From: Blastopirellula retiformator
GTDB lineage: Bacteria > Planctomycetota > Planctomycetia > Pirellulales > Pirellulaceae
NCBI RefSeq assembly: GCF_007859755.1
Contig: NZ_SJPF01000001.1
Span: 248,001-312,000, forward strand
Direction of reading: 5' to 3'
Length of the DNA: 64,000 bases
Positions 315 through 61,738 of the stretch are shown in pieces; within the stretch, counting starts at the first letter, position 1, and every line of letters starts with the position of its first letter. The notes beneath the pieces are model-generated. The model was not told the origin of the DNA. It searched no databases and saw only the letters and a program-made list of their open reading frames with translations. A program made the translations under genes and the position numbers.

Positions 315-689
315 GTGAACGAAAGCACATTGATGTTGTCCTCTCGCGAAGGGGACGTCGTAAAGGTCAAGCTCTTGCCGGTGGAGCTGCGCACGCCGGA
401 AGATTGCTACGATCTGCGGAACGAAATGATCGCCGCGTCGGACGGCTGCCGCGTCGTGCTGATTAACTTCGAGAACGTTACGTTCATGAGTAGCGTCGGT
501 CTCCTCTCCTTCCTCGGCCTCCGCCGAGCCGTCGCCGACCACGAAGTGCGGATCATCTTCTACAATCTCTGCGAGAACCTCAGCGCGATGTTGTCGCTTT
601 GCCGATTGATCTCCGACTCGCCCCACGCCAAGGCGCCCTTCGAGACCGCCGACAACGAAGCCGCCGCCATAGCCCTAGCAGTCCGTTGA
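315..689 (+). CDS. STAS-domain protein, anti-sigma factor antagonist type
   Basis: The product has 124 residues and is almost entirely one STAS domain, the fold of anti-sigma factor antagonists (SpoIIAA/RsbV), which usually act in the cytoplasm by binding an anti-sigma factor or serving as a partner-switch module. The strand VVLINFENVTFMSSVGLLSFL carries the Ser pair where such proteins are phosphorylated. The GTG start at 315 was chosen because an AAGGGA ribosome site lies just upstream and the beta-strand pattern begins there; a later ATG at 333 is less likely. The last residues (AVR) and the stop TGA at 687-689 are supplied by an inserted repeat element that starts at 679; without it the frame would end two codons after the insertion point as LAT-stop. 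No kinase or anti-sigma gene is adjacent. Confidence 0.8.
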   Translation: MNESTLMLSSREGDVVKVKLLPVELRTPEDCYDLRNEMIAASDGCRVVLINFENVTFMSSVGLLSFLGLRRAVADHEVRIIFYNLCENLSAMLSLCRLISDSPHAKAPFETADNEAAAIALAVR

Positions 690-797
690 TTTTCTCGACG
701 GACTGCGTGATCGCATGGATGCGAGCCGCGAAGAGCTACGCTCTGAGCCTGGCGAGGTTGGAAAATGCCACAAGGGCATTTTCCAACAGGCAGCTAG
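675..797 (+). mobile_element. MITE-like multi-hairpin element, copy 1 (115-base deletion form)
   Basis: The core at 679-793 is flanked on both sides by CTAG (675-678 and 794-797). It begins CAGTCCGTTGA and ends TCAACAGGCAG, imperfect terminal inverted repeats. Compared with the 149-base copies at 17094, 28310 and 56889, it lacks the central AAAATAGCGAC hairpin (about 34 bases). It is inserted inside the 3' end of the STAS gene. Confidence 0.8.
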
Positions 798-12396: not shown

Positions 12397-14127
12397 TTAC
12401 TCGTCTTCCGCCGCGATCGCGAACAGGTGCGTCTTGTTGGCGATGTACAGCACGCCATTGGCGACGATCGGGGTCGAGTAGACCGAGTTGCCCATGGTGA
12501 TCTCGTTGATCGGCTCGGCGTCGTCCGGATCGGCCGACAGCTTGAAGACGCAGACGTCGCCATCTTCGTCGCCGATGTAAACGTGATCATTGACGATTAA
12601 CGGCGAGCCCCACGCGGCGGCCAGCATGTCGTAGGTCCAGTGCCGCTTGCCGGTTTGGGCGTCCAGGCAATGGAACAGACCGCTGAAGTCCGAGATGTAG
12701 AGGATGTCGTCTTTGATCGCGACCGTGCCGATGCTGCGGTGCATCGTCTCTTCAAAGCTGATGCGACCGTCGCCGTCGAAGTCTTCGCCGGCGTAGTGCC
12801 AGAGGACGGCGCTGTTGGGGTTGTCGACCGCCGCTTCGCCATCTTCCGGATTGACCGCCTGGATGCGGCGATGCGGCAGCGGCACGCGAGTGCTCCCTTC
12901 GACCTTCATCGCCAACTGCGGGCTGACGTCGCCGCGCTTGGTCGGGTCGATGCACCAAAGGTGGCCTTCGCCTTCGCCATGTTCTGGGTCTTGGCCAACC
13001 GCCACGTAGACCTTGCCGTCGTAGACGACTGGGGTAGCGATAATGTTGTTGCGAGTGCCGCGACCGCCGATGACCCACTTCGATTCTTTCGGGTTACCGT
13101 CAAACTTCCACAGCAGTTCCGGCTTGCCGTCCTTGCCGCGGTCAGCCTTGAAAGAGTAGACCCAGCCGTCGCCGCCGGCGAACAGCACTTGCGGCACGCC
13201 GCCCAGTTCGGCGACCGTCGGGCTCGACCATTGGCCGTGCAGGATGTTTTCGCCCGGCGAACCGTCGGTCCAGAGGACTTCGCCGGTGTTCTTGTCCATC
13301 GCGATGAAGCTGGGAGCGTCGGGCGAGGGCAAGACGATGTGCGATTCGTCGACGCCGTTGGACGTGTTGACGAACAGAATATCGCCGAGCGCCGTGATCG
13401 AGCACGAGCACATGTTGTGCTGCGAGACGCCCAGCTTGTCCATCATGTTATAGACCCAGATGACGTCCGCTTCGTTCTTGTCGGTCAGCTTCTCTTCGGT
13501 GTAGGGACCGTCGTTTTCGCCGTCGTAGAAACCTTCGACGTCCAGGCAGCGAACTTCGCCGCGGCTAGTGACGAACCACAGACGGTTCCCCTCGACATAC
13601 GGAGCGCAGCAGATCCCTTGCAGCGGCCAGTCATGGACGCGGCCGGTCGACAGCTTTTCGCTCGAGTGTTGCCAGAGGAAGTCGCCTGTCTCTTCGTCGT
13701 AGCAAACGAGGACGCCCAGATCGACGTCGGACGGGTAACGCGAGAGCAGGCCGCTGCTGTTGTTGGTGCCGACAAACACTTTGCCCGAGGCGACGACCGG
13801 GTTGCCGTACGATTGGCTGCCGAGCTTGGCGACCCACTTGATGTTCTCGGCTTTGGACGAATCCCACTGGCCGGTCTTACGATCAAAGCGGCCGATGTTC
13901 CAATCGGTCGGAATGTTGGTCGCAACCGGGACGTTGTTGCGCAGCGAGTTGCCGCCCCACATCGGCCAGTCCTTGGTCGGTTCCGATTTCTCGGAAGACA
14001 TGGGCTGAGCGATGCCGGGGACCGGTTCGGCGTCCACCTTCTTTTCCGGCAAGAGCGTCGCGACGATTGCGCCCAGGATCCAGGCGCCGATGACGGCCAG
14101 CAGTGACAGGAAGGGCTTGTTTTGCAT
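12397..14127 (-). CDS. PQQ-type beta-propeller protein, membrane-anchored
   Basis: The 576-residue protein starts with a hydrophobic anchor (LSLLAVIGAWILGAIVATLL). Propeller blades fill the rest, with repeated GkVfvGT, DeeTGdfLW, SPTVAELGG and YISDFSGLFHCLDAQTGKRHW units; eight blades are likely. The domain resembles BamB and PQQ-dependent dehydrogenases, but no disulfide-ring or PQQ-ligand pattern is obvious. It probably faces the periplasm and may bind protein or polysaccharide. It follows the 868-residue propeller gene by 69 bases on the same strand, and a strong terminator closes the unit. Role unknown. Confidence 0.8.
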   Translation of the reverse strand: MQNKPFLSLLAVIGAWILGAIVATLLPEKKVDAEPVPGIAQPMSSEKSEPTKDWPMWGGNSLRNNVPVATNIPTDWNIGRFDRKTGQWDSSKAENIKWVAKLGSQSYGNPVVASGKVFVGTNNSSGLLSRYPSDVDLGVLVCYDEETGDFLWQHSSEKLSTGRVHDWPLQGICCAPYVEGNRLWFVTSRGEVRCLDVEGFYDGENDGPYTEEKLTDKNEADVIWVYNMMDKLGVSQHNMCSCSITALGDILFVNTSNGVDESHIVLPSPDAPSFIAMDKNTGEVLWTDGSPGENILHGQWSSPTVAELGGVPQVLFAGGDGWVYSFKADRGKDGKPELLWKFDGNPKESKWVIGGRGTRNNIIATPVVYDGKVYVAVGQDPEHGEGEGHLWCIDPTKRGDVSPQLAMKVEGSTRVPLPHRRIQAVNPEDGEAAVDNPNSAVLWHYAGEDFDGDGRISFEETMHRSIGTVAIKDDILYISDFSGLFHCLDAQTGKRHWTYDMLAAAWGSPLIVNDHVYIGDEDGDVCVFKLSADPDDAEPINEITMGNSVYSTPIVANGVLYIANKTHLFAIAAEDE

Positions 14128-14196
14128 AACAGCTCCGAAAACTCTATGGGTAGGCTTATAATCTAAGGGGGGAAAGAACGTCAGGCCGCGCGGCGA

Positions 14197-16803
14197 CTAG
14201 TTGTCGTTGGGCGTGACCGTCACGTTGTCGATGTACAACTCGGCGTTGGTCGCCTTGCCGAAGAAGCCAGGGCTGCCGTCGCGGTTGGGGATGGTGTCCT
14301 CGCCGACGATGGTCCAGTCGGACGGTTCGGCTTCGTCCTTCTTCCAGACCTTGCCCCGAACGACGGCGATATCGCCTTCGTTGGAAACCTGCAGCTTCAT
14401 CACGTACCAGTCGTCCGCTTCCATCTCAAACGGAAGCGACTTGGCCATCCGCATCTGGGTCACCCAGCTGCGAACCTGCATCGTCTTGTCGTTGCCGTTG
14501 AGCACGAACTGATAACCTTGGGCGATCAAGCCGATGTCAGGCAGTTGGCCATCCTCGGTCTTGGCCGCTTTGACGTCGGCCTGAATCGTGTAGTCGTGCA
14601 GCTCGGGGCTGCTCATCCACGATTGGCTGCGGGTACCCTTCGGAATGGTCGTGATCTTGACCATCGCCTGACTGCCGTCGATCTCGCGAATGACGTGACG
14701 ATAGCGGGCGCCGACCCAAGTGATCGGCGGTTGGCCGGCGCCGGTGGCCGGATCCAAGGCGATATCGTCGAAGTTGAAGCTCCAGGGAAGGTTCGGAATC
14801 GTGCGAATCCGGGCTTCGCTGCTCACTTCGTCCAATTTGGCCGTAACGGTCGTTGCGGTGTGGGCGTCGCTCGTTTCGGCAGTGTACAGTCCGTTGGCGT
14901 CGATCTTGCCGGGGCCGGTCAGTTCAAACTTGACGCCGCTGAGGTCAGCGTCGAGCTTTTCGCCCAGCTTGTTGTAGGCGACGACGTCGAACTGCTGCGA
15001 TTGGCCAGGCTTCAGCAGCAGCTCACACGGAGTCACTTGCAGCTGAGCGATCTCGGGATTGTCGCTGACAGGAGCTTCCGGGGTCACCGGAGGCAGGCCT
15101 TTGAAACCTTTTTCTTTGGTCGGATCTTCCAGGCAGTAGATGCCGGCCGAGGTCGGCACGTAGATCAGGCCTTGAGCGCAGATCGGCGAGCCGTTGACTT
15201 CGCCATCGCGGAATCGGCCCTTGTTGAGAATCTCCAGCGAGCCGTCTTCTTGCGGCTCGAGGATCGCCCAGTTGCCGTTGGTTTCAAACGCGTAGATCTT
15301 GCCGTCGGCGTAGAGCGGGTTGGACCGCATGGCCCGGCCGATCGCCACGCGGCGACCAACCGGTTCGCCGGTCTTGGCGTCAAAGCCAAAGACCTTGCCG
15401 GCGTCGTTGAAGGCGTAGACGTAATCGTTGACCTTCAGCAGAGTGCTTTTGCCCATCATGATTTCGGGCTGTTGCCAGATCAGGCCTTTGCCGGTGATGT
15501 CGCCGGTCATGTCGCCTTTGATCGCGGCGACGTTCCCCATGAACGACGAGATGTCGCCCAGGTTCTCTTCGCTATGACCGACATAGACGACGTCGCCGTC
15601 GACGGTTGGCGAAGCGTTGATGCCGCGCATCGACATGTTGTAGTGCCAGATCTCTTTACCCGTACGGGGCTGCAGCGCCCAGAAGGCGCCGTCGCCCGAG
15701 CCGAAGACCATCGCCTTTTGACCGTTAAGCGTGGCGATGACCGGGGCGCTGTAAGTGGTGTCATCCGGCAGCAGACGGGTTCCTTCGAACCAGATCATTT
15801 CGCCGGTGTTCTTGTCGAACGCCATGAAGCGATGGGCCGGCTTGGCCATGTCGCCCCAGCCGATCACGACGGCGCTGATGATGACCAGATCTTCAAAGAC
15901 GATCGGGAAATTGGTGCGGCCGCCATAGGTCGACAGCAGACCATACTCTTCGTGCAGCTTATGAACCCATTCGGTCTTGCCGGTTTCGGCGTCGATGCAC
16001 TGGAAGTGACCGCAGACCCCCAGGGCGTAGATCTTGCCGTTGGTCGGATCGCCGACGACGGCCGACCAGCCGACTCGTTCGACCGGCACGTCCGACAGGT
16101 AAACGTTGAAGCGATTCTCCCAGAGGAACTCGCCAGTTTGGGCGTCGAGGCAAACGACCCGTTCTCCTTCACGCTTGGTCCCTTGTTCGGCGGGGCACAG
16201 CGTGTAAAGCTTGCCATTCATCACGATCGGCGTGCTGCGGGAGCCGAACTCTTCGGCGAACCATTTGACGTTGCTTCCTTCGCCCCCTTCGGCATCGAAG
16301 TCGTCAAGCAGGCCGGTCGCTTGCGAGTGACCGTTGAACTGCGGGCCGCGGACATACGTCCAATCTTGCGGATCGGCTTCGCCGGCCGGCTTGGCGTCGG
16401 TGGCGACATGCGCGGTCGCTTCCGCTTCTTCAACCGGGGCGGCGGCGGAAGCTTCCGCTGCTGGCGCCGCTTTCATTTCTGCCCCATCTTCCTTCGCCGG
16501 AGCAGCGCCCGAGGCGCCAATGCTCTCGGAAATCGGTTCCGGCTTCGCGGCGACCGCTGCTTCCGATTTCATCTCGCTAGCAGAGGACGCTTCGGCGGCG
16601 GGCTTCTCCGCTTCCGGCTGCATCGCCTCTTCGGCGTGCTCTTCTCCCTCGTGCTCATGATCGTGGTCGGCGTGATCATGGTCATGATCATGTTCGCCAG
16701 ACGTATTACTAGGCGTGGGAGTCGTAGTGGCGGGCGGGGTGCAGCCGAAGATCGCGAGGGCCGCAATTACTAGTAGGAGAGAGAGACTGGAAGTCTTCGT
16801 CAT
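14197..16803 (-). CDS. Lipoprotein with His/Asp-rich linker and PQQ-type beta-propeller
   Basis: The 868-residue product begins with a lipoprotein signal (SLSLLLVIAALAIFGC) starting at the ATG at 16803. Next comes a histidine/aspartate run of alternating D and H with EHEGEEH (about residues 35-60), able to bind divalent metals, then an Ala/Glu/Pro-rich linker to residue 145. From there propeller blades follow (WTYVRGPQFNGHS, GKLYTLCPAEQ, LDAQTGEFLW, GWSAVVGDP and similar), and the last 250 residues form beta-rich domains, including VTPNDN at the end. It is the upstream gene of a two-gene unit with 12397-14127. The metal-binding segment is a clear sequence fact; its use is not known. Confidence 0.8.
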   Translation of the reverse strand: MTKTSSLSLLLVIAALAIFGCTPPATTTPTPSNTSGEHDHDHDHADHDHEHEGEEHAEEAMQPEAEKPAAEASSASEMKSEAAVAAKPEPISESIGASGAAPAKEDGAEMKAAPAAEASAAAPVEEAEATAHVATDAKPAGEADPQDWTYVRGPQFNGHSQATGLLDDFDAEGGEGSNVKWFAEEFGSRSTPIVMNGKLYTLCPAEQGTKREGERVVCLDAQTGEFLWENRFNVYLSDVPVERVGWSAVVGDPTNGKIYALGVCGHFQCIDAETGKTEWVHKLHEEYGLLSTYGGRTNFPIVFEDLVIISAVVIGWGDMAKPAHRFMAFDKNTGEMIWFEGTRLLPDDTTYSAPVIATLNGQKAMVFGSGDGAFWALQPRTGKEIWHYNMSMRGINASPTVDGDVVYVGHSEENLGDISSFMGNVAAIKGDMTGDITGKGLIWQQPEIMMGKSTLLKVNDYVYAFNDAGKVFGFDAKTGEPVGRRVAIGRAMRSNPLYADGKIYAFETNGNWAILEPQEDGSLEILNKGRFRDGEVNGSPICAQGLIYVPTSAGIYCLEDPTKEKGFKGLPPVTPEAPVSDNPEIAQLQVTPCELLLKPGQSQQFDVVAYNKLGEKLDADLSGVKFELTGPGKIDANGLYTAETSDAHTATTVTAKLDEVSSEARIRTIPNLPWSFNFDDIALDPATGAGQPPITWVGARYRHVIREIDGSQAMVKITTIPKGTRSQSWMSSPELHDYTIQADVKAAKTEDGQLPDIGLIAQGYQFVLNGNDKTMQVRSWVTQMRMAKSLPFEMEADDWYVMKLQVSNEGDIAVVRGKVWKKDEAEPSDWTIVGEDTIPNRDGSPGFFGKATNAELYIDNVTVTPNDN

Positions 16804-17089
16804 GGGTGAATACCTGCAGAGTTCTGCTGTTCGGGCTGGGCAAGCGGTAGGGATCGCTCTGTTTAGGATACGCCGTCTGAGGTCGCCGGGCAACTGATAG
16901 CTGAAGGCCGCCGCAAACGGCAAAACCAAGAATTCAATAGACTTACGCCGACGAAGTGGGGATTTTGGCAGAGAAAATTGGCGTCAGCGTGATTTGTTTC
17001 ACAACGTCGGAGGGGGAAAGCCCCACATTGGCCGCCAAAAAACTTGGGAAGTTTTGCCGCAACCGAGCCGCCAATCGTAAAACCAGCAG

Positions 17090-17246
17090 CTAGCAATCCG
17101 TTGATTTTCTCAACGGGCTGCTGGATCGCAGGGATGCGATCCCAAAATAGCGACGTAAGTCGTTATTTTGCGAGCCGCGAAGAGCTATGCTTTGAGCCTG
17201 GCGAGGTTGGAAAATGCCACGAGGGCATTTTTCAACAGGCAGCTAG
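17090..17246 (+). mobile_element. MITE-like multi-hairpin element, copy 2 (complete, 149 bases)
   Basis: The 149-base core at 17094-17242 lies between CTAG at 17090-17093 and CTAG at 17243-17246. Hairpins seen: AATCCGTTGA with TCAACGGGCTG, GATCGCA...TGCGATC, AAAATAGCGAC with GTCGTTATTTT, and AAAATGCCA with GGCATTTTT. The right CTAG contains the TAG stop of the minus-strand cupin gene. Confidence 0.85.
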
Positions 17247-17608
17247 TCGTCAAACCACTCGTCGCTGGGGTCAAACTTCGGATAGACGATGTTCAGGATC
17301 TTCATCTGCCCGATCGCCCTGTGCCGCGTGCCGGGGCGAATCATCACCAGCATGCCGGGCTTCAGGTCAATCCGGGCGTCATCCAGCTGCATTTGCGCGT
17401 CTTCGGCACACTCGAGGATGTAATACGTCTCGGTCAGGCGCTTGTGGTAGTGCAGCTTGGCGTCGGTCGAGATCTCGGTCAGGTGAATCGTGCCGGGATA
17501 GTCGGCCACCTCGGCCAGTCCGCGGCGGGCGGTTCCGCACGGGCAAGGGACTCCGGGAAGCGCCGCCAGGTGGACGACTTCGTAGCCTGAGGTGGAACTG
17601 GCGGACAT
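17243..17608 (-). CDS. Cupin-domain protein
   Basis: The 121-residue protein is a single small cupin: TIHLTEISTDAKLHYHKRLTETYYILE carries the first motif (H-x-H and the glutamate in TETYYILE), and LKPGMLVMIRPGTRHRAIG the second. Such proteins bind a metal and range from isomerases to sensors. The N-terminus holds a CPCG motif (VPCPCGTARR) that may bind a metal or simply be structural. The TAG stop lies inside the CTAG that borders element copy 2, so the gene's 3' end is the element's insertion point; the stop is kept. No operon partner is near. Confidence 0.8.
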   Translation of the reverse strand: MSASSTSGYEVVHLAALPGVPCPCGTARRGLAEVADYPGTIHLTEISTDAKLHYHKRLTETYYILECAEDAQMQLDDARIDLKPGMLVMIRPGTRHRAIGQMKILNIVYPKFDPSDEWFDD

Positions 17609-18256
17609 AAACTACTCCGAATGACCGGCGAGCGGCGAACATGAATGAATCACGGAAGATTTCCGCTGATTATTTTAGCTAACCGGCGCCGCCGCTTCCA
17701 GTTCGTACAAAGGCCCCAATCGCGGGAGGCGCAGGCGTGAAGCTGCGGTGAGTTTGCGGCCTGCGTTTGCTTTGCCGCCCTGCGGCTGGCCCGATAATCG
17801 TTAAGGTTTTCCAGGTCTCTGGAGGCGTTAAATCTTGCGCTACAGGATAGGTAAACCAAGTTGCGGAAATTGACTTCGATCGGTAAAGCGGCATTGATTC
17901 GCAGGCCGATACCGTGATCTGGCGACCGAAATTCGATCGCCGTGCTGAAGTCCCTCTCGCGGAGAAAGAGGGCACGTTAACTCTCGGCATGGAGAGATCG
18001 AGTCACGGGAAGACTCGACCGAAGTTAGCGGTCAATATTTTGTGTGGACTGTAGGAGCTTAGCAAGCTTCCTGAACAAGGTCCGACTGACGCTCCCACAC
18101 TTACCCGTCGTTTCAACGGTCCCGCCTGTTGATGTGATGTTGTAAGCGAACACTCGCGGCGTGGGAGTCGCACACCGTGACTGTTCACGCGAGCGCCGGC
18201 CAAGTGACGGACTGCGAGCGGGCCCACAGTACTAACGCATTAGGAGACGTTGCTCG
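17609..18256. other. Long gene-free leader region upstream of the cysteine-rich gene
   Basis: About 650 bases lack any open frame with credible start and codon use. Several short dyads are visible, for example GTGGGAGCGTCAGTCGG against CTCCCAC segments (18075-18170) and CTCTCGCGGAGAAAGAG (17955-17971). A TATTTT box occurs near 18033. The end carries a clear AGGAGA ribosome site 9 bases before the ATG at 18257. A long structured leader or a small RNA is possible; no named RNA family is recognised. Confidence 0.4.
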
Positions 18257-19222
18257 ATGAAACTGAATCTTGTTGTGGGAACGATGTTGGTTGCGCTGAT
18301 GTGTAGCCAATCGTTTGCCGCCGGTCTGCTGAACCAGATGCTCGGCGGTGGCTGTGGCTGCTCGACCTCGTGCTGCCAAACGCCAAAATGTTGCACTCCG
18401 GCCCCGCGCTGCTGTGCTCCTCAACCGACTTGCTGTGCTCCGGCGCCGGCCACGTGCTGTGCCCCTGAGCCGACCTGCTGTGCTCCGGAACCGTCCTGCT
18501 GCGAACCGGTCAGCTGCTGCTCGAAAAAGTGCTGCTCGCCGCTGCGTGACGCTCTGAAGAACCTGTTCTGCTGCAAGAAGAGCTGTGGCTCGTCGTGCGG
18601 TTGCGACACCGGTTGCTGCTCGGTCGAACCGACCTGCTGTGCTCCGGAAGCCGCTTGCTGCGAACCTTCCTGCTGTGCCCCGGAAGCCACCTGCTGTGCT
18701 CCGGAAGCTTGCGGTTGCGATAGCGGTTGCGGAAGCAGCTGCGGTTCGTGCTGCGGCAAGAAGAAGTGCGGTCTGCTGGACGGCCTCTTCTGCCACAAGA
18801 AGAAGAGCTGCTGTGGCGGTTGCGATAGCTGCTGCTCGGTCGAACCGACCTGCTGTGCCCCGGAAGCCACCTGCTGTGCTCCGGAAGCCTGCGGTTGCGA
18901 CGGCGGCTGCGATATGGGTTGCGGTTGCGACACCTCGTGCGGCGGTTGCGCCCCGAAGTGCTGCTCGTGCACCCCGATCCGCGACGCCATCAAGCGTCTG
19001 TTCTGCTGCAAGAAGAGCTGCTGTGGCTCGTCCTGCGGTTGTGACGCCAGCTGCGGCGGATGCACCAGCTGTGGCGGATGCAGCAGCTGCGGCAGCACCA
19101 GCGCCCCGATGTCGCCGATCCCGGCTGACGATTCGGCCGCTCCGATGCCGCCGGCTCCGGTTCCGGCCGACAGCATGACGTTTGTCCCGGCTCGCCGTCG
19201 TCTGGCCAGCAACGTTCGCTAA
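18257..19222 (+). CDS. Exported cysteine-rich repeat protein
   Basis: The 321-residue protein has a signal peptide (MKLNLVVGTMLVALMCSQSFAA). The mature part is about one-quarter cysteine, arranged in many copies of TCCAPE, CCSKKCC, CGSSCGC and SCCGKKKC-like units, with two similar halves: the SCCGKKKCGLLDGLF and CTPIRDAIKRLFCCKKSCC blocks resemble the earlier CSPLRDALKNLFCCKKSC block. The C-terminal 45 residues are Pro/Ala-rich (APMPPAPVPADS). Cysteine density this high suggests a metal store or a disulfide-linked structural protein at the cell surface. I know of no matching characterised family. A strong ribosome site and a perfect terminator frame it, so it is probably well expressed and monocistronic. 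Confidence 0.8.
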   Translation: MKLNLVVGTMLVALMCSQSFAAGLLNQMLGGGCGCSTSCCQTPKCCTPAPRCCAPQPTCCAPAPATCCAPEPTCCAPEPSCCEPVSCCSKKCCSPLRDALKNLFCCKKSCGSSCGCDTGCCSVEPTCCAPEAACCEPSCCAPEATCCAPEACGCDSGCGSSCGSCCGKKKCGLLDGLFCHKKKSCCGGCDSCCSVEPTCCAPEATCCAPEACGCDGGCDMGCGCDTSCGGCAPKCCSCTPIRDAIKRLFCCKKSCCGSSCGCDASCGGCTSCGGCSSCGSTSAPMSPIPADDSAAPMPPAPVPADSMTFVPARRRLASNVR

Positions 19223-19259
19223 GCTTCGGCTCAGTGAGCACTAGCTAAGAACTGAAAAG

Positions 19260-19289
19260 CCTGGTTGGAGAAATCCAACCAGGTTTTTT
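19260..19289 (+). terminator. Rho-independent terminator after the cysteine-rich gene
   Basis: A perfect 10-base stem (CCTGGTTGGA, loop GAAA, TCCAACCAGG) is followed by six T residues, 37 bases after the stop. Confidence 0.9.
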
Positions 19290-19307
19290 CATGCGCTAGC
19301 CGCTTCA

Positions 19308-19976
19308 TTACCCTTGGAACTGCCGCTGCACTTCCGCGTCCGACAACACCACCATCCCCCAGATCGCAAACGGCATCACAAAGATGCAGCAAAGTCCCGA
19401 AGAGCAGGGGAGCAGCGCCAAAATGAAGCCCGCCCACGCCAACGCGTACGTCCGCAGCTGACTGGCGTTGTACAGCGCAAACAACGTGAACGCGTTGAAG
19501 ATCAGCACAATGCCGCTGCCGATCAGATTGCCGATTATCTCGGCCGGATCGCGCTGATTGGGGCCAGCCGCCAGCATGACGACGTTCATCACCAGGCCCA
19601 GCACCATCAACACCAACATTATCCCCAGCAGCGACATGCAGACGATCGCCGGCACCGCCAACTTTCCTTTGGCGGCCTCAAACCCGCCGGGGCCGGGCCG
19701 GCCGGCGTCCGACGCGGTGTATGGAGACGCATACGGATTCGCTTCGCCTTGCGGCTGCGAAGGGGACGCCTGCGAGTACGGATTGCCAGAGTCTTGCGCC
19801 GCGCCTCCATATGACGATCCGGAAGGGGAGTCGGAGAAGACGTTGCCCGCCGGCGGCGGTCCGCCGGGGATCGGCTGCACGGCCGAGCAATGGGGGCACT
19901 TCGTCCGTTTTCCTTCATTCCCGTCGGGGACGCGAATCTGTTGTTTGCAAACCTGGCAAGCGAATTCAATCGGCAT
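19308..19976 (-). CDS. Zinc-ribbon membrane protein, paralog 1 of 4
   Basis: The 222-residue product begins MPIEFACQVCKQQIRV and has a four-cysteine zinc ribbon, CxxC...CPHC, in residues 7-32. A Pro/Ser/Gly/Tyr-rich linker (about 35-95) leads to four transmembrane segments, ending with the shared motif CIFVMPFAIWG. The same layout recurs in the next three minus-strand genes, so this is the downstream-most member of a four-gene tandem family. The ribbon is probably cytoplasmic, the linker flexible. The start at 19976 is chosen because MPIEF is shared by three of the paralogs. Function is unknown. Confidence 0.75.
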   Translation of the reverse strand: MPIEFACQVCKQQIRVPDGNEGKRTKCPHCSAVQPIPGGPPPAGNVFSDSPSGSSYGGAAQDSGNPYSQASPSQPQGEANPYASPYTASDAGRPGPGGFEAAKGKLAVPAIVCMSLLGIMLVLMVLGLVMNVVMLAAGPNQRDPAEIIGNLIGSGIVLIFNAFTLFALYNASQLRTYALAWAGFILALLPCSSGLCCIFVMPFAIWGMVVLSDAEVQRQFQG

Positions 19977-20103
19977 CGGCGTAACTTCAAAGATGGTCAA
20001 GAGCGTTCGGCGCGGCCCTCAATCGCCGCGATGTGACTAATGTAAGCCGCCGCTAGCCAAAGTGCTAGCGCTGCGGCGAGGTCCGTTGATTGCGGCGATC
20101 AGC

Positions 20104-20796
20104 TCACCGGAATTGCGCTTTTCCTTCCGGCAGGCACAGCAGCACAATCGCCCAAATGCCAGCGGTAAAGCCGAGAATCGCCAGCAGCAACGTTGGGCAG
20201 TTGCTGATCGCGCCGCACGGAATCATCCCCAGCAGCACGCCGACCCACGCCATCGTGTACGACTTGCGAAACAGCACGGTGATCAAAAATCCGATCGCCG
20301 CGATGCTCAAGATTGAACCAATTCCGCACGCCGAGGCCAAACTGATCCACACCACCGCCTGATCGGCCGCATCCGCGGGATTAGGAGGGCTGACCAGCAT
20401 GAAAATGGCGAACCCCGTCAAAAGGACTGACAACAATAGGTTGACCGCCTGGGCGACCAAGATGATCGCCACCGGCACCGTCAGCAGCACCTTGGCCGTT
20501 TGCTCGGTCATTCCGCCGCCGGTCGGCGCCCGATAGTCGGAGGACGTCGAAGCGGACGCACTGGGCGATTGGTAAGGGTTGGCCGTGTTCTCGGCAAATG
20601 GATTCGGCTCTTCCGCAGCCAACGGCCGGGTCGTAACCGGCTCTGGCGGCGGCAACGGCGGCTCTTCTGGCGCCACTTCAGGCGTCGGGATCCGCTGCAC
20701 ATGGCCGCAGCCGGGGCATTTTACCTTCTTGCCGGCCGAGTCGTCCGGCACGCGCAGTTTCTTGGGGCACTCAGTACAAAGGAACTCGATCGGCAT
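20104..20796 (-). CDS. Zinc-ribbon membrane protein, paralog 2 of 4
   Basis: The 230-residue protein starts MPIEFLCTECPKKLRV and carries ribbon cysteines CTEC...CPGCGHVQRIP (residues 7-33). An acidic Pro/Glu-rich linker (LAAEEPNPFAEN) leads to NPYQSP, a motif also seen in paralogs 1 and 4. Four membrane segments follow, with ...IPCGAISNC and the terminal GIWAIVLLCLPEG in place of the FAIWG motif. About 130 bases separate it from its neighbour paralog. Its C-terminal part is the most divergent of the set. Confidence 0.75.
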   Translation of the reverse strand: MPIEFLCTECPKKLRVPDDSAGKKVKCPGCGHVQRIPTPEVAPEEPPLPPPEPVTTRPLAAEEPNPFAENTANPYQSPSASASTSSDYRAPTGGGMTEQTAKVLLTVPVAIILVAQAVNLLLSVLLTGFAIFMLVSPPNPADAADQAVVWISLASACGIGSILSIAAIGFLITVLFRKSYTMAWVGVLLGMIPCGAISNCPTLLLAILGFTAGIWAIVLLCLPEGKAQFR

Positions 20797-20890
20797 CGAA
20801 ACGGCATTCCACCAAAAGCGAACAGGAAGAGGAGTTAGCCAAGTCTAAGTCGCGCCGCCGGTAAACTCCACTGTAATCTTGCCGCGGCGA

Positions 20891-21505
20891 CTAACGGCGG
20901 AAGTGGGACGAAATCCGACGGTCCGCCAACAGTACGATCCCCCAAATGGCGAACGGAATGCCGAGCACGCAAAACAGCGACGCGCCGCACGGCGTCATTG
21001 CCAGCACCAGGCCGATCCACGCCCAGACCCGGTTGTGGAGGGTCCGAAAGTGAATTAACCCTTTCATCATCACCGCGGTTACACCGACCGTCAGCCCACC
21101 GAACAGCATCGAAAACGCCGCTCCTACCGCCGTCAGGTTGGCCGGCGGCGCGAACATTAGCTGCAACGTCCACACGACCACCGACACCGTGTTCACCGTC
21201 ATCGCCAGGATCGCCACAAAAAACAGGGCCGTCCCCGGCGTCGAGATCCGGTGCCGCACCTCGACCAGCGACAAGCTCTCGGGCGGCGGAACCGCCGCCG
21301 CGGCGACTGCCGGAAGGGGCTCTTCGCGCCAGGGCCCGTTGTTGGTTTCTCGCAGTCGCAGTTCCGGCTCTGGCGCTGGTTTTGCCGCTGGCTGCGGCAC
21401 CCGCTCGGCCGATTGGCACTTCGGGCAGCGCACCATCTTGCCTGCCAACGGGTCAGGCACACGAAATTTCGTAGAGCATTGGCTGCAAGCGAATTCGATC
21501 GGCAT
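20891..21505 (-). CDS. Zinc-ribbon membrane protein, paralog 3 of 4
   Basis: The 204-residue product begins MPIEFACSQCSTKFRV with ribbon cysteines CSQC...CPKCQSAERVP (7-33). The linker is shorter and Pro/Ala/Glu-rich. Four membrane segments end with MTPCGASLFCVLGIPFAIWGIVLL, a closer match to paralogs 1 and 4. The ATG at 21505 is used because the MPIEF start is shared; a longer frame upstream has no homologous extension. Confidence 0.75.
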   Translation of the reverse strand: MPIEFACSQCSTKFRVPDPLAGKMVRCPKCQSAERVPQPAAKPAPEPELRLRETNNGPWREEPLPAVAAAAVPPPESLSLVEVRHRISTPGTALFFVAILAMTVNTVSVVVWTLQLMFAPPANLTAVGAAFSMLFGGLTVGVTAVMMKGLIHFRTLHNRVWAWIGLVLAMTPCGASLFCVLGIPFAIWGIVLLADRRISSHFRR

Positions 21506-21645
21506 TCGCGACTGTCCCAACCGCAACCGGTCGAAGTTAGTTAGCCAGCGGGCGCTCGCCAAATGACAAGTCGCCCACGGGGCAATGGTTTCTTCGTTGC
21601 GCCTGGCCGGGTCTTGGGCCAAAAACCAGTCCGACGAAAAACGGG

Positions 21646-22293
21646 TTAGCTATGAAAACTCGACTTGATCTGCGGGTCGTTCATCTGAATCAATCCCCAA
21701 ATCGCAAAGGGAATAGCGAGAACGCAAAGGACCGAAGTTCCGCACGGCAGCATCGACAACACCAGCCCTGTCTGCGCGGAGCCGCTGTCGTCCAGCCGCA
21801 CGAAACTGAGCAAACCTGTGAACGTGTAATAAATGCAGGCCAACCCGAGCAGTCCGCCGATGCCGCCGCCGACTACGTTGAACTTGCCGGCACTGATCAG
21901 CAAGATGACAAGCCCGATCTCCGCCACCACGCGCAAGACCACCAGCGTCAACAAGACCATGCCTGGGATCAAGACGCGCTGCGAAGCGGGCGTTACGCTT
22001 CGTTTTTTCTTTCCACCCGAGCCCCCGGTCGCTGCAGGGGACTGAAATGGATTGGGACTGGACGGCAGAGCCGTTCCAGCCGTTTGGCTCCAAAAGTCGT
22101 CGTCATCCTTCGCTTTGACCTGGTAGTCGATCTGCGGTTCCGGCTCGGGATCAGGCAACAGATCCGCTTCGATTTGCGGACTGGGGATCTGCCCAATCGT
22201 CTTGCACTTTGGACAACGGACCTTCTTGCCCGCCATCTTTTCATCGACTTTGAATTTGGCCGCACAGCTACCGCACGTGAATACGATCGGCAT
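21646..22293 (-). CDS. Zinc-ribbon membrane protein, paralog 4 of 4
   Basis: The 215-residue protein starts MPIVFTCGSCAAKFKV with ribbon cysteines CGSC...CPKCKTIGQIP. An acidic linker contains DDDDFW and SPNPFQSP. Four membrane segments end in MLPCGTSVLCVLAIPFAIWG. It is the first gene of the minus-strand row. Spacing between the four genes is 95-140 bases, enough for each to have its own promoter. Confidence 0.75.
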   Translation of the reverse strand: MPIVFTCGSCAAKFKVDEKMAGKKVRCPKCKTIGQIPSPQIEADLLPDPEPEPQIDYQVKAKDDDDFWSQTAGTALPSSPNPFQSPAATGGSGGKKKRSVTPASQRVLIPGMVLLTLVVLRVVAEIGLVILLISAGKFNVVGGGIGGLLGLACIYYTFTGLLSFVRLDDSGSAQTGLVLSMLPCGTSVLCVLAIPFAIWGLIQMNDPQIKSSFHS

Positions 22294-22500
22294 TCCGGAC
22301 TCCCCCAAACTATTGACGATTCACCCAGTTGAGCGCCTCTTTCTCTGATGCTAATACCGTAGAGGGGTATCATCGGGGTACTAGTCTATTTAGGTCAACA
22401 GCGATCGTCTATCCGTTGTCTTCCAATTTCCCCAATTCGTTGACCCTGTTAAGATGAATGGTCATTTGCGACGGCAAGGAACCAAACAAGCAAGGCAGGG

Positions 22501-24507
22501 ATGGGCAGCTACTCGGTAAACGACATTTTGGGTCCCGACGGCAGTATCGCTCGGCGTTTACCTCGCTACGAACTTCGCCAGCAGCAGCTCGACATGGCCG
22601 ATGCGGTCGCCGCGGCGATCGAAAACAAGCGGCATTTGATCGTCGAGGCCGGCACCGGCGTCGGCAAAAGCTTCGCCTATCTGGTCCCTGCGATCTTGGC
22701 GGTCGGCCAAGAGCCGCGGGACGAAGAGGAAGATCGCCCCCGGCGGATCATCGTCTCGACCCACACCATCGCCCTGCAAGAGCAGCTGATCCAAAAAGAC
22801 CTGCCGCTGCTCAACAGCGTGATCCCGCTCGAGTTCACCGCGGTGCTGGCCAAGGGGCGCGGCAACTATCTCAGCAAACGCCGCATGGGCGCGGCCCTCA
22901 GTCGGACCAAAACGCTGTTCGCCAAAGATGAAGAAGAGCATCAGCTCGACCACATCCGCACCTGGTCGAAGGAGACCAGCGACGGCTCGCTGAGCGATCT
23001 GGAGTTTCGCCCGCTCGGTTCGGTTTGGGACGAAGTCCATAGCGACAGCGGCAATTGCCTGGGCCGCAACTGTCCCAGCTACAACGACTGCTTTTACTAC
23101 AAGGCTCGCCGCCGCGTTCAAAACGCCCAGATCATCATCGTCAATCACGCCCTCTTCTTCAGCGACCTGGCGCTCCGCCGCAGCGGCGTCAATCTGTTGC
23201 CGAAGTACGACGCGGTGATCTTTGACGAAGCCCACACCATCGAGTCGGTCGCCGGCGATCACCTCGGGCTTTCGATCACCTCGGCCCAGATCGACTACAC
23301 CCTCAACAAGCTGTTCAACGACCGCACCAACAAAGGGCTGTTGATGCACCATGGACTGACCGAAGCGATGCAGCAGGTCGTCCATTGCCAATTCCGGGCA
23401 CAGCAGTTCTTCACCGAGATCGACGCTTGGCTCGCAGAGAACCCGCAGTCGAGCGGCCGCGTCCGCGACGCCGAGCTGGTCCCCAACGTGTTGACGCCGG
23501 CGCTGGCCAAGTTGGCCGCCCAGGTCAAAAACGCCGGCGAAGATATGAACGACGATAGTCAACGGCAAGACCTCACCTCGATGAGCGATCGGCTCTACTT
23601 GTTGGCGGATGGGATCGAAAGCTGGCGCACCCAAAAAATCGAAGACGCCGTCTACTGGGTCGAAAGCAGCCAACAGCGCGGCCCCTATCGTCGCGTCAAG
23701 TTGTCGGCCGCCCCGGTCGACGTTGGCCCGGCGCTGCGAAGCGAACTGTTTCAAGCGGTCGACAGCGTCATCATGACCAGCGCCACGTTGGCGGTCGGCG
23801 GCGGAAACTCGTTCGACTTCTTCAAGTCGCGGGTTGGTTTGACGAAAAGCGAAACGTTCTCGCTCGGCTCTCCGTTCGACTACTCCGAACAAGCGAAGCT
23901 GATTTTGGTCAACGAAATGCCCGACCCCAGCGACCGCAAGAACTACGACAAGGCGGTCGTCGAAATGATCCGGCGGTATGTCGCCCGGACGCAAGGTCGG
24001 GCGTTTGTCCTATTTACCAGCTACGAAATGCTCCGCTGGGCCGCCAGTTCGCTCACCCGCTGGCTGTCGCAAGAAGGAATCGAACTGTTCAGCCAGTCGG
24101 ACGGCATGCCGCGCAGCGTGATGGTCGAAAAGTTCAAGCAGTCCGAAAAGGCGGTTCTCTTCGGCACCGACAGCTTCTGGCAAGGAGTCGACGTCCCCGG
24201 TGACGCCCTGCAAAACGTGATCATCACTAAGCTTCCTTTTAGCGTGCCTGACCAACCGCTCTTACAAGCTCGGCTCGAGCGGATCAAAGAGCAAGGAGGC
24301 CAACCGTTCGGCCAGTACCAACTGCCCGAAGCGGTGATCAAACTCCGCCAAGGTTTCGGCCGCCTGATCCGCACCCAAGAAGACTCCGGCATCGTCGTGA
24401 TCCTCGATCCGCGGGTCAAAACCAAGAGCTACGGAAAAGTCTTCCTGAAGTCGCTCCCCGACTGCCCGATCGTCAACGAAAGCTACAAAGGAGGAGCGTT
24501 CGCCTAA
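22501..24507 (+). CDS. dinG: DinG/XPD-like ATP-dependent DNA helicase
   Basis: The 668-residue protein is a superfamily 2, DinG-group helicase. Motif I is EAGTGVGKS (residues 49-57), motif Ia ISTHT-like IIVSTHTIALQEQL, and motif II is VIFDEAHTIE near 240. C-terminal motifs include AVLFGTDSFWQGVDVPGD and a terminal QGFGRLIRTQ. DinG-type helicases unwind DNA 5' to 3' and resolve R-loops or D-loops. In XPD/DinG proteins four cysteines hold a 4Fe-4S cluster; here only three are present (GNCLGRNCPSYNDC, about 186-197), and the first, normally in a KGRxNYLC segment, is serine (KGRGNYLS, about 118-125). The cluster may be missing or altered. The ATG at 22501 has an upstream AAGGCAGGG site. Confidence 0.88.
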   Translation: MGSYSVNDILGPDGSIARRLPRYELRQQQLDMADAVAAAIENKRHLIVEAGTGVGKSFAYLVPAILAVGQEPRDEEEDRPRRIIVSTHTIALQEQLIQKDLPLLNSVIPLEFTAVLAKGRGNYLSKRRMGAALSRTKTLFAKDEEEHQLDHIRTWSKETSDGSLSDLEFRPLGSVWDEVHSDSGNCLGRNCPSYNDCFYYKARRRVQNAQIIIVNHALFFSDLALRRSGVNLLPKYDAVIFDEAHTIESVAGDHLGLSITSAQIDYTLNKLFNDRTNKGLLMHHGLTEAMQQVVHCQFRAQQFFTEIDAWLAENPQSSGRVRDAELVPNVLTPALAKLAAQVKNAGEDMNDDSQRQDLTSMSDRLYLLADGIESWRTQKIEDAVYWVESSQQRGPYRRVKLSAAPVDVGPALRSELFQAVDSVIMTSATLAVGGGNSFDFFKSRVGLTKSETFSLGSPFDYSEQAKLILVNEMPDPSDRKNYDKAVVEMIRRYVARTQGRAFVLFTSYEMLRWAASSLTRWLSQEGIELFSQSDGMPRSVMVEKFKQSEKAVLFGTDSFWQGVDVPGDALQNVIITKLPFSVPDQPLLQARLERIKEQGGQPFGQYQLPEAVIKLRQGFGRLIRTQEDSGIVVILDPRVKTKSYGKVFLKSLPDCPIVNESYKGGAFA

Positions 24508-24559
24508 ATAGTAGCCCGAGTGCGCAAGCTGAGGGAATCCGCCCGCAAGCCAACAAACC

Positions 24560-25145
24560 GGACCACAGCCCGCACGTTTTTTTGATCCCCCATCCCCGTA
24601 GGGTCCGCTGTGCGGACCAAGAACCTGCCCCAACGCCCGTTTGGCAAACAACCCCAACCGGACCGCCACGTTCCAAAATTTCCGAACTGCCAAACAGCCC
24701 GCATCTTCATCAGCCCCATCGGGGCGATCTAATAGCGGCGCCGTTTGTCGGTTCGTATCCTGCGATGGACTGGACCGATGGTTTGCATTTTTTTGCTGGC
24801 CGATGTCGATCGGACCGCAGCGCACGTTTTTTTGATCCCCCATCCGCGTAGGGTCCGCTGTGCGGACCAAGAACCTGCCGAGTCGCCCATTTGGCAAACA
24901 ACCCCAACCGGACCGCCACGTTCCAAAATTTTCGAATTGCCAAACACAGCCCGCATCTTCATCAGCCCATCGGGGCGATCTAATAGCGGCGCCGTTTATT
25001 GGTTTGTATCCTGCGATGGACTGGACCGATGGTTTGCATTTTTTTGCTGGCCGACGTCGATCGGACTGGACCGCAGTGCACGTTTTTTTCGAGCCCCCAT
25101 CCCCGTAGGGTCCGCTGTGCGGACCAAGAGCCTGCTGGCTCGGTC
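24560..25145. repeat. Tandem repeat of about 252 bases, 2.3 copies
   Basis: Units start at 24560, 24812 and 25068 (spacings 252 and 256 bases); the third is cut off after about 78 bases. Each holds GGACC.CAG, GCACGTTTTTTT, a GTAGGGTCCGCTGTGCGGACC palindromic stretch, and CATCGGGGCGATCTAATAG. It lies between dinG and the AAA ATPase gene and shows no coding frame. Confidence 0.85.
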
Positions 25146-25206
25146 ATTTGGCGCCCGTTGCTCATGCTTGTTGAGCAGGTTCGTGGTCCGCACAGCGGAC
25201 CCTACG
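25104..25206. repeat. Inverted repeat around the ATPase gene end
   Basis: CGTAGGGTCCGCTGTGCGGACC at 25104-25125 is repeated in reverse complement at 25185-25206. The right arm belongs to the 3' end of the AAA ATPase gene and is an inverted piece of the tandem repeat. Confidence 0.8.
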
Positions 25207-26442
25207 ACTGGATCGCTCCGTTTCATTTTTTTCGTTCTCCGGCGGCAACGTATATCGCTTGAGCGTCGAATGGGGGTCTTTCGGCATCTCGACGATCTTC
25301 CCGGCCGTCATCATCCGGTCCCAGGTCGGGCCGAACTTGCTGCCGCTCATGCCGCTGTTGCTGCGGATGTTGTATTTGCAGAGGCCGCTTTCGCCAGCAT
25401 CGATTAGGACGCGGCGGAGTTGGGACTCGAGCTTTTCGAACTTCACGTCTTCTTTCGCCTGCTTCGCGGCGGCTTCGATCTCGGTCGCTTCCCGAAGAGT
25501 GACGTTCCAGCGCCGGCCTCCTTCATCGGTCAGTTTACCCTCGTCGATATCAACGCCCCACTCGCCACCTTGCCCAGCGTAGCCGCCGATCGACAGCCAG
25601 AGTTTGTGCTTTCCGCTACCCGACTCAAACGCTTCGCGACGGTTCACCAATAACCACTGCTGGGCGAAGTCGAGACTGCCGGCCAAGATCGAGGCGTCGA
25701 GTTTGCTTGGCTTCATTTCTTTGCGAGTTTGCACGCAGAGAATCGGCGTGGCGCCAGCTTTCGAAATGGTTTTCACCAGCGTTCGAATCGCTTCGGCCTG
25801 CTTGCGTTTGTTGGTGGAACCGAGCTTCAGTGGATCGATCACGACGACTTCTAGTTCAAACTTCTCGATCCACTTCTGCAAGCTCTCGAGGTTCTCCGGA
25901 GCTGCCGGCTCCTCGACCGCCATGAACCACTGCAGGTTGTCGAGCGTTGGGTTTTCCTCCCGGGCAGCGCTCCACCGGACCGCCAAGTCGGCGAGCTGCG
26001 ATTGCTTGTTGTCGGCGCCAACAAAGCCGACGCGGAACACTTTTTCAGCGGCGAACTCTCCCAAAAACTTGCCGCCGGTCGCGAGCGCCGCGCAGAGATC
26101 GACCGCCAGCGACGACTTTAATGTCTTGCTCGGGCCAACGATCACCGCCGGTTCGTTCTTGGTGAGCAAATTCGGGAAGAGCCACGCCTGCGGCTTTCGC
26201 TCGGCGAGCATTTCGGCAGTCGAGAGCGTGCGATGCGTCTCTTTCGCCTCATCACCGCCGCCAACGTCGATGCGGAAGAAGTCAATATCTTTGGAAGCGG
26301 AATCGTCACTGGTCAGCGCGTCGAGCCGCTCGATGATTTTCGTTCGGTCGGCGGCGAGTTGTTCGGCAGTTTCCTTCGCTCGCAGCTCTTTCCGCAACTG
26401 ACGCATCCGGGTTTGAAACTTCTGAATTCGGGCTCGGCGCAT
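25162..26442 (-). CDS. AAA-family ATPase (RepA/DnaB-like, replication or phage type)
   Basis: The 426-residue protein has a P-loop ATPase domain: Walker A VGPSKTLKSSLAVDL (about 109-123), the Walker B strand VVVIDPLKLGS near 220, and a TRKEM arginine region. This is the RecA-like fold of RepA-type and phage Sf6-type initiator/helicase proteins. An N-terminal basic coiled segment (MRRARIQKFQTRMRQLRKELRAK) precedes it, and a C-terminal winged-helix-like part contains IRSNSGMSGSKFG. The last about 12 residues (RCADHEPAQQA) read into a repeat, so the native end is probably earlier. The ATG at 26442 has an AAGGGA site eight bases upstream. It lies in repeat-rich DNA and may derive from a plasmid or phage. 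Confidence 0.7.
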   Translation of the reverse strand: MRRARIQKFQTRMRQLRKELRAKETAEQLAADRTKIIERLDALTSDDSASKDIDFFRIDVGGGDEAKETHRTLSTAEMLAERKPQAWLFPNLLTKNEPAVIVGPSKTLKSSLAVDLCAALATGGKFLGEFAAEKVFRVGFVGADNKQSQLADLAVRWSAAREENPTLDNLQWFMAVEEPAAPENLESLQKWIEKFELEVVVIDPLKLGSTNKRKQAEAIRTLVKTISKAGATPILCVQTRKEMKPSKLDASILAGSLDFAQQWLLVNRREAFESGSGKHKLWLSIGGYAGQGGEWGVDIDEGKLTDEGGRRWNVTLREATEIEAAAKQAKEDVKFEKLESQLRRVLIDAGESGLCKYNIRSNSGMSGSKFGPTWDRMMTAGKIVEMPKDPHSTLKRYTLPPENEKNETERSSRRVRCADHEPAQQA

Positions 26443-26477
26443 GAGATTTCCCTTGGTTTGTGAAAACAAAATCTGAA

Positions 26478-26592
26478 TGCCACTGGCCTTCCGCCAGTGT
26501 CTTCCGTGAATCCGTATCCAGCTCCATACTTCGACCGCGTCACTTCGATCTGAAGAGCACTGGCGCCCGGTGGGAAGTTGGTTCGCTCAGCG
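26478..26592. repeat. Direct repeat, copy A
   Basis: Starts TGCCACTGGCCTTCCGCCAG and ends GGTTCGCTCAGCG. Copy B (26779-26908) shares almost the whole sequence but carries 15 extra bases near the middle. The stem CACTGGCC/GGCCAGTG can fold. Confidence 0.8.
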
Positions 26593-26973
26593 CGCAGGGA
26601 GGGCCATCAGCGACCTGCGTGCTTCGGAAAATTCGCCTTGCCGCCATGCAGGGCGCGAAGAATTTTGGCTCGGCGGGCGATTGATCAGGCACCCGCAACT
26701 TTAAGGGGTGTAGTGTACGAAATGCCAGGCAGGTTTGCAAGCCTTTTTTGACGCTTCGTAGGCCCTGGGTAGGCTGGGTGCCACTGGCCTTCAGCCAGTG
26801 TCTTCCGTGAATCGATATCCAGCTCCGTACTTCAACCGCGTCACTTCGATCATAAAGAGCACTTGCTGAAGGCCAGTGGCGCCCGGTGGGAAGTTGGTTC
26901 GCTCAGCGGACCCTACGCGGGAGGTGGTGTTGGCCGTTTTCGGGTCTCGGCTTTCCGCTTTTCTTCGGGGCGT
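26593..26973. repeat. Gene-free region with direct repeat copy B (26779-26908)
   Basis: Copy B begins TGCCACTGGCCTTCAGCCAG and ends GGTTCGCTCAGCG, matching copy A at 26478. The part between the copies (26593-26778) shows no credible coding frame. The stop of the exported nuclease gene follows at 26974. Confidence 0.7.
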
Positions 26974-28305: not shown

Positions 28306-28462
28306 CTAGCAGTCCGTTGACTTTCTCGACGGACTGCGTGATCGCACGGATGCGATCCCAAAATAGCGACGTGAGTCGTTATTTTGCGAGCCGCGAAGAG
28401 CTACGCTCTGAGCCTGGCGAGGTTGGAAAATGCCACGATGGCATTTTTCAACAGGCAGTTAG
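28306..28462 (+). mobile_element. MITE-like multi-hairpin element, copy 3 (complete, 149 bases)
   Basis: The 149-base core 28310-28458 lies between CTAG (28306-28309) and TTAG (28459-28462). Hairpins include CAGTCCGT/ACGGACTG, GATCGCA/TGCGATC, AAAATAGCGAC/GTCGTTATTTT, AGAGC/GCTCT and AAAATGCCA/TGGCATTTT. It lies between divergently oriented genes, not on a stop codon; the two flanking tetranucleotides differ by one base. Confidence 0.85.
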
Positions 28463-51543: not shown

Positions 51544-51766
51544 GGCGTCCCAGTTCTGTTGAAAAAGACAAAGTGGGAAAGTTTGCTCCACCCTCTAGGG
51601 GCGGCGGTTTGGGAGTAAAATCCCTCCAATTTAACCCCAGGAAAGAGTTGGGTACAAGCGGGAGGAGCAGGGTAATTTCGCTAGAATTGCTGCGAAGCGC
51701 CCGAAGTTGATTCTCGCTCTGTTCTGGTCGACGTAACGGCTCGCCCGAACGATCATCGAAAGGTGC

Positions 51767-51814
51767 GATCGCATCCGTGCGATCACGCAGTCCGTCGAGA
51801 AGATCAACGGACTG
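51767..51814 (-). mobile_element. MITE-like element fragment
   Basis: The segment GATCGCATCCGTGCGATC followed by CAGTCCGTCGAGAAGATCAACGGACTG matches the end of the 149-base element that contains its GATCGCA hairpin and outer hairpin. The other two-thirds is absent. It lies about 60 bases upstream of the tag gene. Confidence 0.75.
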
Positions 51815-56888: not shown

Positions 56889-57041
56889 CTGCCTGTTGAA
56901 AAATGCCCTCGTGGCATTTTTCAACCTCGCCAGGCTCAGAGCATAGCTCTTCGCGGCTCGCAAAATAACGACTTACGTCGTTATTTTGGGATCGCATCCG
57001 TGCGATCACGCAGTCCGTCGAGAAAATCAACGGACTGTTAG
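56885..57041 (-). mobile_element. MITE-like multi-hairpin element, copy 4 (complete, 149 bases)
   Basis: The 149-base core at 56889-57037 is in the opposite orientation to copies 1-3 and lies between TTAG (56885-56888) and TTAG (57038-57041). Identical TTAG tetranucleotides here, versus CTAG at other copies, show that the tetranucleotide belongs to the target, not to the element. The left TTAG holds the upstream gene's stop codon. Confidence 0.85.
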
Positions 57042-61645: not shown

Positions 61646-61717
61646 CTGCCTGTTGAAAAATGCCATCGTGGCATTTTCCAACCTCGCCGGGCTCAGAGCA
61701 TCGCTCTTCGCAGCTCG
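61641..61717 (-). mobile_element. MITE-like element, partial copy 5
   Basis: CTAA at 61641-61644 (containing the stop of tkt) is followed by CTGCCTGTTGA, the AAAATGCCA hairpin and part of the AGAGC hairpin, then the match stops near 61717. The opposite end is missing, so this is a decayed copy. Confidence 0.75.
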
Positions 61718-61738
61718 TACAATCGTCAATACCCGAAG

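Follow-up and report, generated by a model that had tools for sequence, protein, structure and literature searches.

The window, the whole 64,000-nucleotide stretch of DNA that was analysed, carries three 149-bp copies, one 115-bp internal-deletion form and two end fragments of a short repeat (Table 1). All of them lie at or within a few bases of the places given in the original prediction, and the flanks that it reported for the copies at 17094, 28310, 56889 and 679 are as claimed. The repeat has imperfect terminal inverted repeats (CAGTCCGTTGA / CTGCCTGTTGA) and contains no transposase gene; being short and present in many copies, it has the makeup of a MITE. A search of the window with a core 25-mer, allowing up to 3 mismatches, gave 5 matches versus 0 in 100 shuffles. 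The gene that ends in the target site of the copy at 17094 is putatively cupin-like, judging by its sequence.

Table 1. Positions of the repeat, its flanks and its predicted hairpins in the window
Feature	Position	Strand	Remark
149-bp copy	17094..17242	+	left end CAATCCGTTGA, right end TCAACAGGCAG
Left target duplication, CTAG	17090..17093	none	single CTAG at the empty site of congener G015
Right target duplication, CTAG	17243..17246	none	doubles as the TAG stop of the minus-strand gene 17243-17608
121-aa gene ending in the target site of the 17094 copy	17243..17608	-	
Hairpin 1	17094..17120	+	left terminal repeat paired with an inverted copy of itself
Hairpin 2	17124..17141	+	GATCGCA/TGCGATC
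Hairpin 3	17143..17170	+	CAAAATAGCGAC/GTCGTTATTTTG
Hairpin 4	17174..17202	+	internal loop at tandem G-A positions
Hairpin 5	17206..17236	+	3' arm includes inner part of right terminal repeat; loop region is the site of an IS4-family element in three other copies
149-bp copy	28310..28458	+	flanks CTAG/TTAG; empty in 3/3 congeners
149-bp copy	56889..57037	-	flanks CTAA/CTAA in element orientation (TTAG/TTAG on the window plus strand)
115-bp internal-deletion form	679..793	+	flanks CTAG/CTAG
Right-end fragment	61646..61723	-	
Left-end fragment	51764..51814	-	

The host genome (6.20 Mb, 10 contigs, 97.3% complete) was searched throughout for the core 25-mer, again with up to 3 mismatches. This yielded 302 matches, with 0 in the reversed control; were every match full length, the repeat would make up about 0.7% of the sequence. 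Copies were read around most of the first 100 of the 302 listed places and at further loci of this genome, and a copy was counted as two-ended when both 11-base ends (up to 2 mismatches each) and the core motif were present. The 93 two-ended copies read comprise 84 of 149 bp, 5 of 115 bp and 4 of other lengths. Mean identity to the consensus is 96.9% over the 84 full-length copies, 77 of which are distinct. Two subfamilies are distinguished by four linked positions, reading GAGT in 51 of the 84 and AGTG in 26. The initial listing held 369 candidates in the host genome versus 16-21 in each congener. In the congeners G015, G078 and G093, a DNA search that scored at most the best 14 candidates found 5, 5 and 2 matches, and a covariance model that scored at most the best 10 found 6, 5 and 3.

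Several other repeats were seen along the way. At L013 (1144-1200), the left MITE end CTAGCAGTCCGTTGATTTTTTCAACGG is followed immediately by a GACAGAAAAGGGGACGGGGGTC hairpin, with a Y1_Tnp gene nearby; hairpin 1 seems to have been invaded or replaced by a different repeat. About 10 kb of contig C2 (266800-276700; L004, L007, L010, L014, L018, L023) holds five Y1_Tnp matches and an ISAs1-like copy, three of these matches lying in near-identical copies (L004, L007 and L010, 96-98% DNA identity). In the window, 24577-25206 and 26473-26927 contain repeats that include GTAGGGTCCGCTGTGCGGACC palindromes and recur at intervals of about 250-300 bp, and a frame at 18257-19222 has many cysteine-rich repeats and perhaps encodes a surface or structural protein.

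Target duplications and insertion in stop codons

Equal tetramers flank 69 of the 93 two-ended copies, compared with a mean of 17.4 and a maximum of 29 in 5000 shuffles; the flanks of the other 24 are unequal, as decay gives. The equal pairs read CTAG (24), TTAG (18), CTAA (13), ATAG (5), GTAG (3), TTAA (3) and three others. Non-palindromic TTAG/CTAA flanks are repeated directly 31 times and inversely 0 times, indicating that they are true target duplications and not the guide tetranucleotides of REP pairs. Most of the tetramers agree with the YTAR target that had been predicted, but ATAG and GTAG widen the target to NTAR overall.

The window from 14000 to 31000 is collinear with the three congeners, and the two sites compared, 17094 and 28310, are empty in all of them. 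At 17094, the single CTAG present in G015 identifies the tetramer as the target; there it serves the cupin-like gene as its stop codon. G078 and G093 read TTAC. At 28310, neither CTAG nor TTAG is kept in the three congeners. Flank statistics and empty sites thus bear out the predicted MITE with 4-bp target duplications. The original prediction was to fall if relatives carried the same sequence at the same loci or if the tetranucleotides were an invariant part of the repeat, and neither was found at the sites compared. Judged by its sequence, the repeat can be classed as a non-autonomous DNA transposon, a MITE. Among 25 model-found relatives, one per genome, an equal TA-centred tetramer occurs in 7 (L191, L192, L198, L203, L204, L206 and L217), where 3.0 are expected and shuffles also reach 7, which weakly suggests duplication outside the genus.

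In 30 of 64 copies, these being the duplication-bearing ones with enough flank, the duplicated tetramer provides the stop codon for a frame that stays open over 100 codons or more. The other such sites within 300 bp served as local controls and lie in a stop codon in 76 of 474 cases (16%; Fisher p 1.1e-7). With frames of 200 codons the counts are 15 of 64 insertions versus 33 of 474 control sites; such long frames are not gene calls, and the control sites were scored identically. With TAG and TAA contained in the target, stop codons are hit by many insertions. A frame runs out into the left end of the MITE in 13 cases and into the right end in 18, with both in one copy, so that neither an orientation preference nor a strand-specific 3'-UTR role shows. 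In the copy at 679-793, the first bases of the element supply the last codons and the TGA stop of a frame at 72-689. A terminator scan of 16900-17400 called no terminator-like site, and a terminator role is therefore not claimed. The enrichment itself is plain, and it may reflect that the duplication rebuilds the stop, so that insertions in stop codons would be harmless and survive. Stop codons in the target, rebuilt by the duplication, would offer a mobile element a clean route to harmlessness.

A chain of five hairpins

About five stem-loops per copy had been predicted, and RNA folding of 28310-28458 gives such stem-loops, with a folding energy of -72.7 kcal/mol (z -8.0) for the plus strand versus -58.4 kcal/mol (z -5.5) for the complement. 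The chain is seen in most single folds; the exceptions are L158, L165 and a few more. Over 25 sequences from this and other genomes, 88.2% of the cells of the five-hairpin structure are paired, compared with 81.6% in shuffled and 33-41% in slid controls, the slid comparison favouring the structure because it was drawn from the window copy. Changes on both sides of a pair number 105, versus 33.3 in shuffled alignments, and fall on 20 of the 56 pairs. Further pair types number 52, which is not exceptional, as 59 of 500 shuffles reach this value. These pair counts are lowered in alignment A2, where hairpin 2 stands one column off in the four G003 sequences. RNAalifold without a supplied structure found 35 pairs, 15 of them with a both-side change, and missed hairpin 2. 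Compensatory changes thus appear to keep the five hairpins across the order. Because the terminal repeats form part of hairpins 1 and 5, some of the covariation there may track the ends; hairpins 2-4 hold no terminal repeat and have no such reason to covary. Rfam 15 covariance models gave 0 matches up to E = 1 on 17050-17290, and a known structured RNA family was rejected on this ground.

Within the host genome, the 77 distinct copies contain pair variants off the Watson-Crick consensus that comprise 17 G-U, 14 A-C, 25 other and 2 Watson-Crick types, and these resemble near-neutral decay. Widely shared variants occur in five pairs. Four of them (4-24, 9-19, 57-70 and 117-139) stay standard pairs on the plus strand, none being A-C, and the fifth, the loop-closing pair 126-130, reads A-T in 38 copies and A-G in 39. 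The pattern suggests, short of proof, that the structure matters in multiplying copies and not in resident ones.

We tentatively propose that the hairpin chain may be a selected part of the transposon, as structured RNA or as single-stranded DNA, which decides which copies amplify or are tolerated. The MITE would then act as a mobile gene end, structured in advance, which inserts in stop codons and keeps the stop, and selection on the chain would make it a transposon with a conserved RNA or DNA fold, beyond its ends alone. A possible, if doubtful, alternative is that the compensatory changes come from palindrome-correcting mutation by template switching and not from structural selection. It would fit the close-to-neutral look of the pair variants in the 77 copies and the terminal repeats in hairpins 1 and 5, which may track the evolution of the ends, but it leaves aside the standard plus-strand pairs at four of the five shared variants, the better folding of the plus strand and the conservation of partly unpaired stretches such as GCGAGCC.

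Candidate helper insertion sequence

Transposases of the host genome were listed by their PF01609, PF01797 and PF05598 matches. Only one of the PF01609 families examined has MITE-like ends, namely L039 (PF05598 + PF01609), which terminates on its 3' side in TTCAACGGGCTG, followed directly by CTAG. L039 is 5'-truncated and lacks the N-terminal part present in its relatives, and its only other copy in this genome is a fragment; no intact helper was seen there. The frame just upstream of L039 is presumably IS3-like, judging by its sequence. Copies of ISAs1, IS1380 (L038) and IS1182 (L037) were rejected as the parent because their ends differ.

An autonomous relative with matching ends was found in related genomes. 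Intact elements of this helper type are 1.40-1.54 kb long, encode a PF05598 + PF01609 protein and have the ends CAGCCCGTTGA. When equal flanks were made a condition, 14 of 31 helper loci (L121-L151) showed paired GTTGA-type ends, 12 of these having CAGCCCGTTGA on either side, and L138 showed a GTGG-type pair. Where both ends were located, the flanks are equal in 15 of 20 loci and unequal in L123, L125, L126, L133 and L151. The equal flanks read CTAG, TTAG, CTAA, TTAA and also ATAG, in agreement with the YTAR duplication of IS5. The end of L132 matches the left end of the MITE at 18 of 20 bases, and that of L147 matches the right end at 17 of 19. Eight full-length helper proteins scored best in NCBIfam against the IS1182 model NF033551 (185-218 bits, cut-off 270) and next best against the IS5 model NF033581 (92-124 bits, cut-off 140), and four partial proteins gave the same verdict. 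Scores below both curated cut-offs place the helper between IS5 and IS1182, in neither curated family.

The ends of the two partners differ together in f8, one family of the host order, where helper ends and MITE ends both read CAG..CGTGG. Helper ends, read at L121-L151 and L249-L277, have GTGG instead of GTTG in 9 of 9 distinct f8 loci; outside f8, an end is visible in 24 of 27 distinct loci and reads GTTGA or GTTTA, L135 also giving stray matches. Among the f8 MITEs, L216 and L217 carry GTGG on either side and L212 has it on the left alone, its right end being CAGCCGTTGGCC, and in genome G124 CAGCCCGTGGCC occurs in both helper and MITE. Ends could be listed for 18 of the 25 MITE loci outside f8. 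They read GTTG at both ends in 13 of the 18 and at one end in 4 (L200, L205, L207 and L211, the other end of L207 being GTGG), and L204 has GGGG at both ends and GTTG at none. The f8 members are 119 bp long and also fold into hairpins. At L212 (genome G278), two such 119-bp elements stand head to tail, 4 bases apart.

Relatives of L039 were found in 25 of 296 genomes of the host order with the single protein (E <= 1e-60), and the helper profile (E <= 1e-40) found 35 of 296, the host genome included; G024 carries one such element six times. The MITE was detected by covariance model (E <= 1e-6) in 32 of 296 genomes, spread over nine families of the order, and this count is a lower bound because only the best ten candidates were scored per genome under stricter filters. 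Both partners occur together in 9 genomes versus 3.8 expected (p 0.006, phylogeny not corrected). The helper had no match at E <= 1e-40 in 23 of the 32 MITE-bearing genomes; MITE-rich genomes that lack it include G003, G055, G062 and G037. Twelve of these, chosen for lacking the helper, were searched again at E <= 0.001 and none was found; the search of the 296 genomes serves as the positive control of the profile. Two explanations fit these counts: a faster gain and loss of the helper than of the MITE, or the action of a more distant transposase in many genomes.

It is unlikely, in our estimate, that the MITE is moved by a different transposase outside the IS5/IS1182-like family. Such a mover would account for the helper-free genomes and the lone truncated copy in the host, where the transposase listing covers three Pfam families only, but the ends and the target match the IS5/IS1182-like family, MITE and helper ends show a joint difference in f8, and the other PF01609 families examined in the host genome have no such ends. 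MITEs commonly outlive their helper. The predicted IS5-like mobiliser therefore holds as to matching ends, YTAR-like flanks and family-matched ends, and gives way in that the transposase falls under the IS5 and IS1182 cut-offs; its supposed location elsewhere in the genome comes down to one 5'-truncated copy and a fragment, no intact copy having been found.

The model that we consider highly probable on comparative sequence evidence is a MITE with an NTAR duplication that would be moved in trans by an IS5/IS1182-like transposase, inserting harmlessly in stop codons and maintaining its hairpin chain. The MITE ends would be recognised in trans by the DDE transposase of the IS5/IS1182-like insertion sequence. 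The element would be cut and then joined to NTAR targets, mostly YTAR, with a 4-bp stagger. Insertions in stop codons would survive, presumably since the duplication restores the stop. As the least certain step, which we nevertheless prefer, the hairpin chain might make new copies tolerable or amplifiable by providing a structured 3' end in either orientation.

Comparison with known systems

REP/BIME repeats with RAYT (GTAG repeats) are noted in Planctomycetes in an excerpt of PMC3733652, and they resemble the present repeat in having hairpins beside a TA-containing tetranucleotide. It is very improbable that the repeat is itself of the REP/BIME type, in which a Y1 (RAYT/IS200-like) transposase would be the mover and the tetranucleotide would serve as a fixed guide by each hairpin. 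The genome has 21 Y1_Tnp matches, and a hairpin adjoins the tetranucleotide at each end of the element; such guides, however, would be fixed and inverted, whereas the TTAG/CTAA flanks are direct, site-specific and vary from copy to copy in step, and the empty site of 17094 in G015 keeps one CTAG, as a target does. A REP/RAYT origin was rejected on the orientation of the flanks.

An IS4-family element of 1551 bp with the ends CAATACYGTTCGGCACG was found in four copies in the host genome. Three of them (L033, L035 and L036) share the 9-bp target CCCTCGTGG within hairpin 5 of the MITE, its two sides differing by one base at L033, and the fourth (L034) lies elsewhere with its own 9-bp duplication GGACGGGGG; the element appears to target the MITE hairpin. 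The 1.7-kb composites at L033 and L035, in which MITE ends flank the IS4-family transposase gene, are most improbable as the autonomous parent, and the IS4-family element was rejected in this role, as it is nested in hairpin 5, where it shows ends of its own (CAATACYGTTCGG) and a separate 9-bp duplication, and has a copy elsewhere. The composites may still have moved as units at a later stage. IS1397-like elements insert into REP hairpins. The IS4-family element similarly enters the loop region of a repeated hairpin, but it belongs to a different IS family and its target is a MITE hairpin.

The MITE and its helper share a 4-bp YTAR-like duplication with the IS5 group, for which an excerpt of PMC10359306 gives the target motif YTAR. 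They differ in that NTAR is also used, the transposase scores under the NCBIfam IS5 cut-offs and the ends are CAGCCCGTTGA. The IS1182 family provides the best NCBIfam match of the helper and has the DUF772 + DDE_Tnp_1 layout in common with it, but the helper stays under the 270-bit cut-off and a true IS1182 copy in this genome (L037, 334 bits) has different ends.

The bcr1 element of the Bacillus cereus group is likewise MITE-like with a conserved stem-loop structure, its size being given as 167 and 147 (excerpt of PMC2267715), and it often lies in UTRs or operon intergenic regions (excerpt of PMC3446304). The title of a work cited by PMC2267715/PMC3446304 calls it B. cereus group-specific, whereas the present MITE family occurs in nine families of an order. 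The host of bcr1 is unrelated. The ends and target of bcr1 also differ from those of the present MITE. An earlier description of this MITE was not found among the titles, abstract openings and excerpts of open-licence papers that were searched, including an excerpt of PMC10969869.

In our judgement, the MITE would work like a passenger of the IS5 group, with a helper that is IS5/IS1182-like while scoring below either curated cut-off. Stop-codon placement, co-differing ends and a conserved hairpin chain make it more than one further copy of a known element, namely an order-wide planctomycete MITE family that seems tied to a helper transposase type by ends differing together in one host family.
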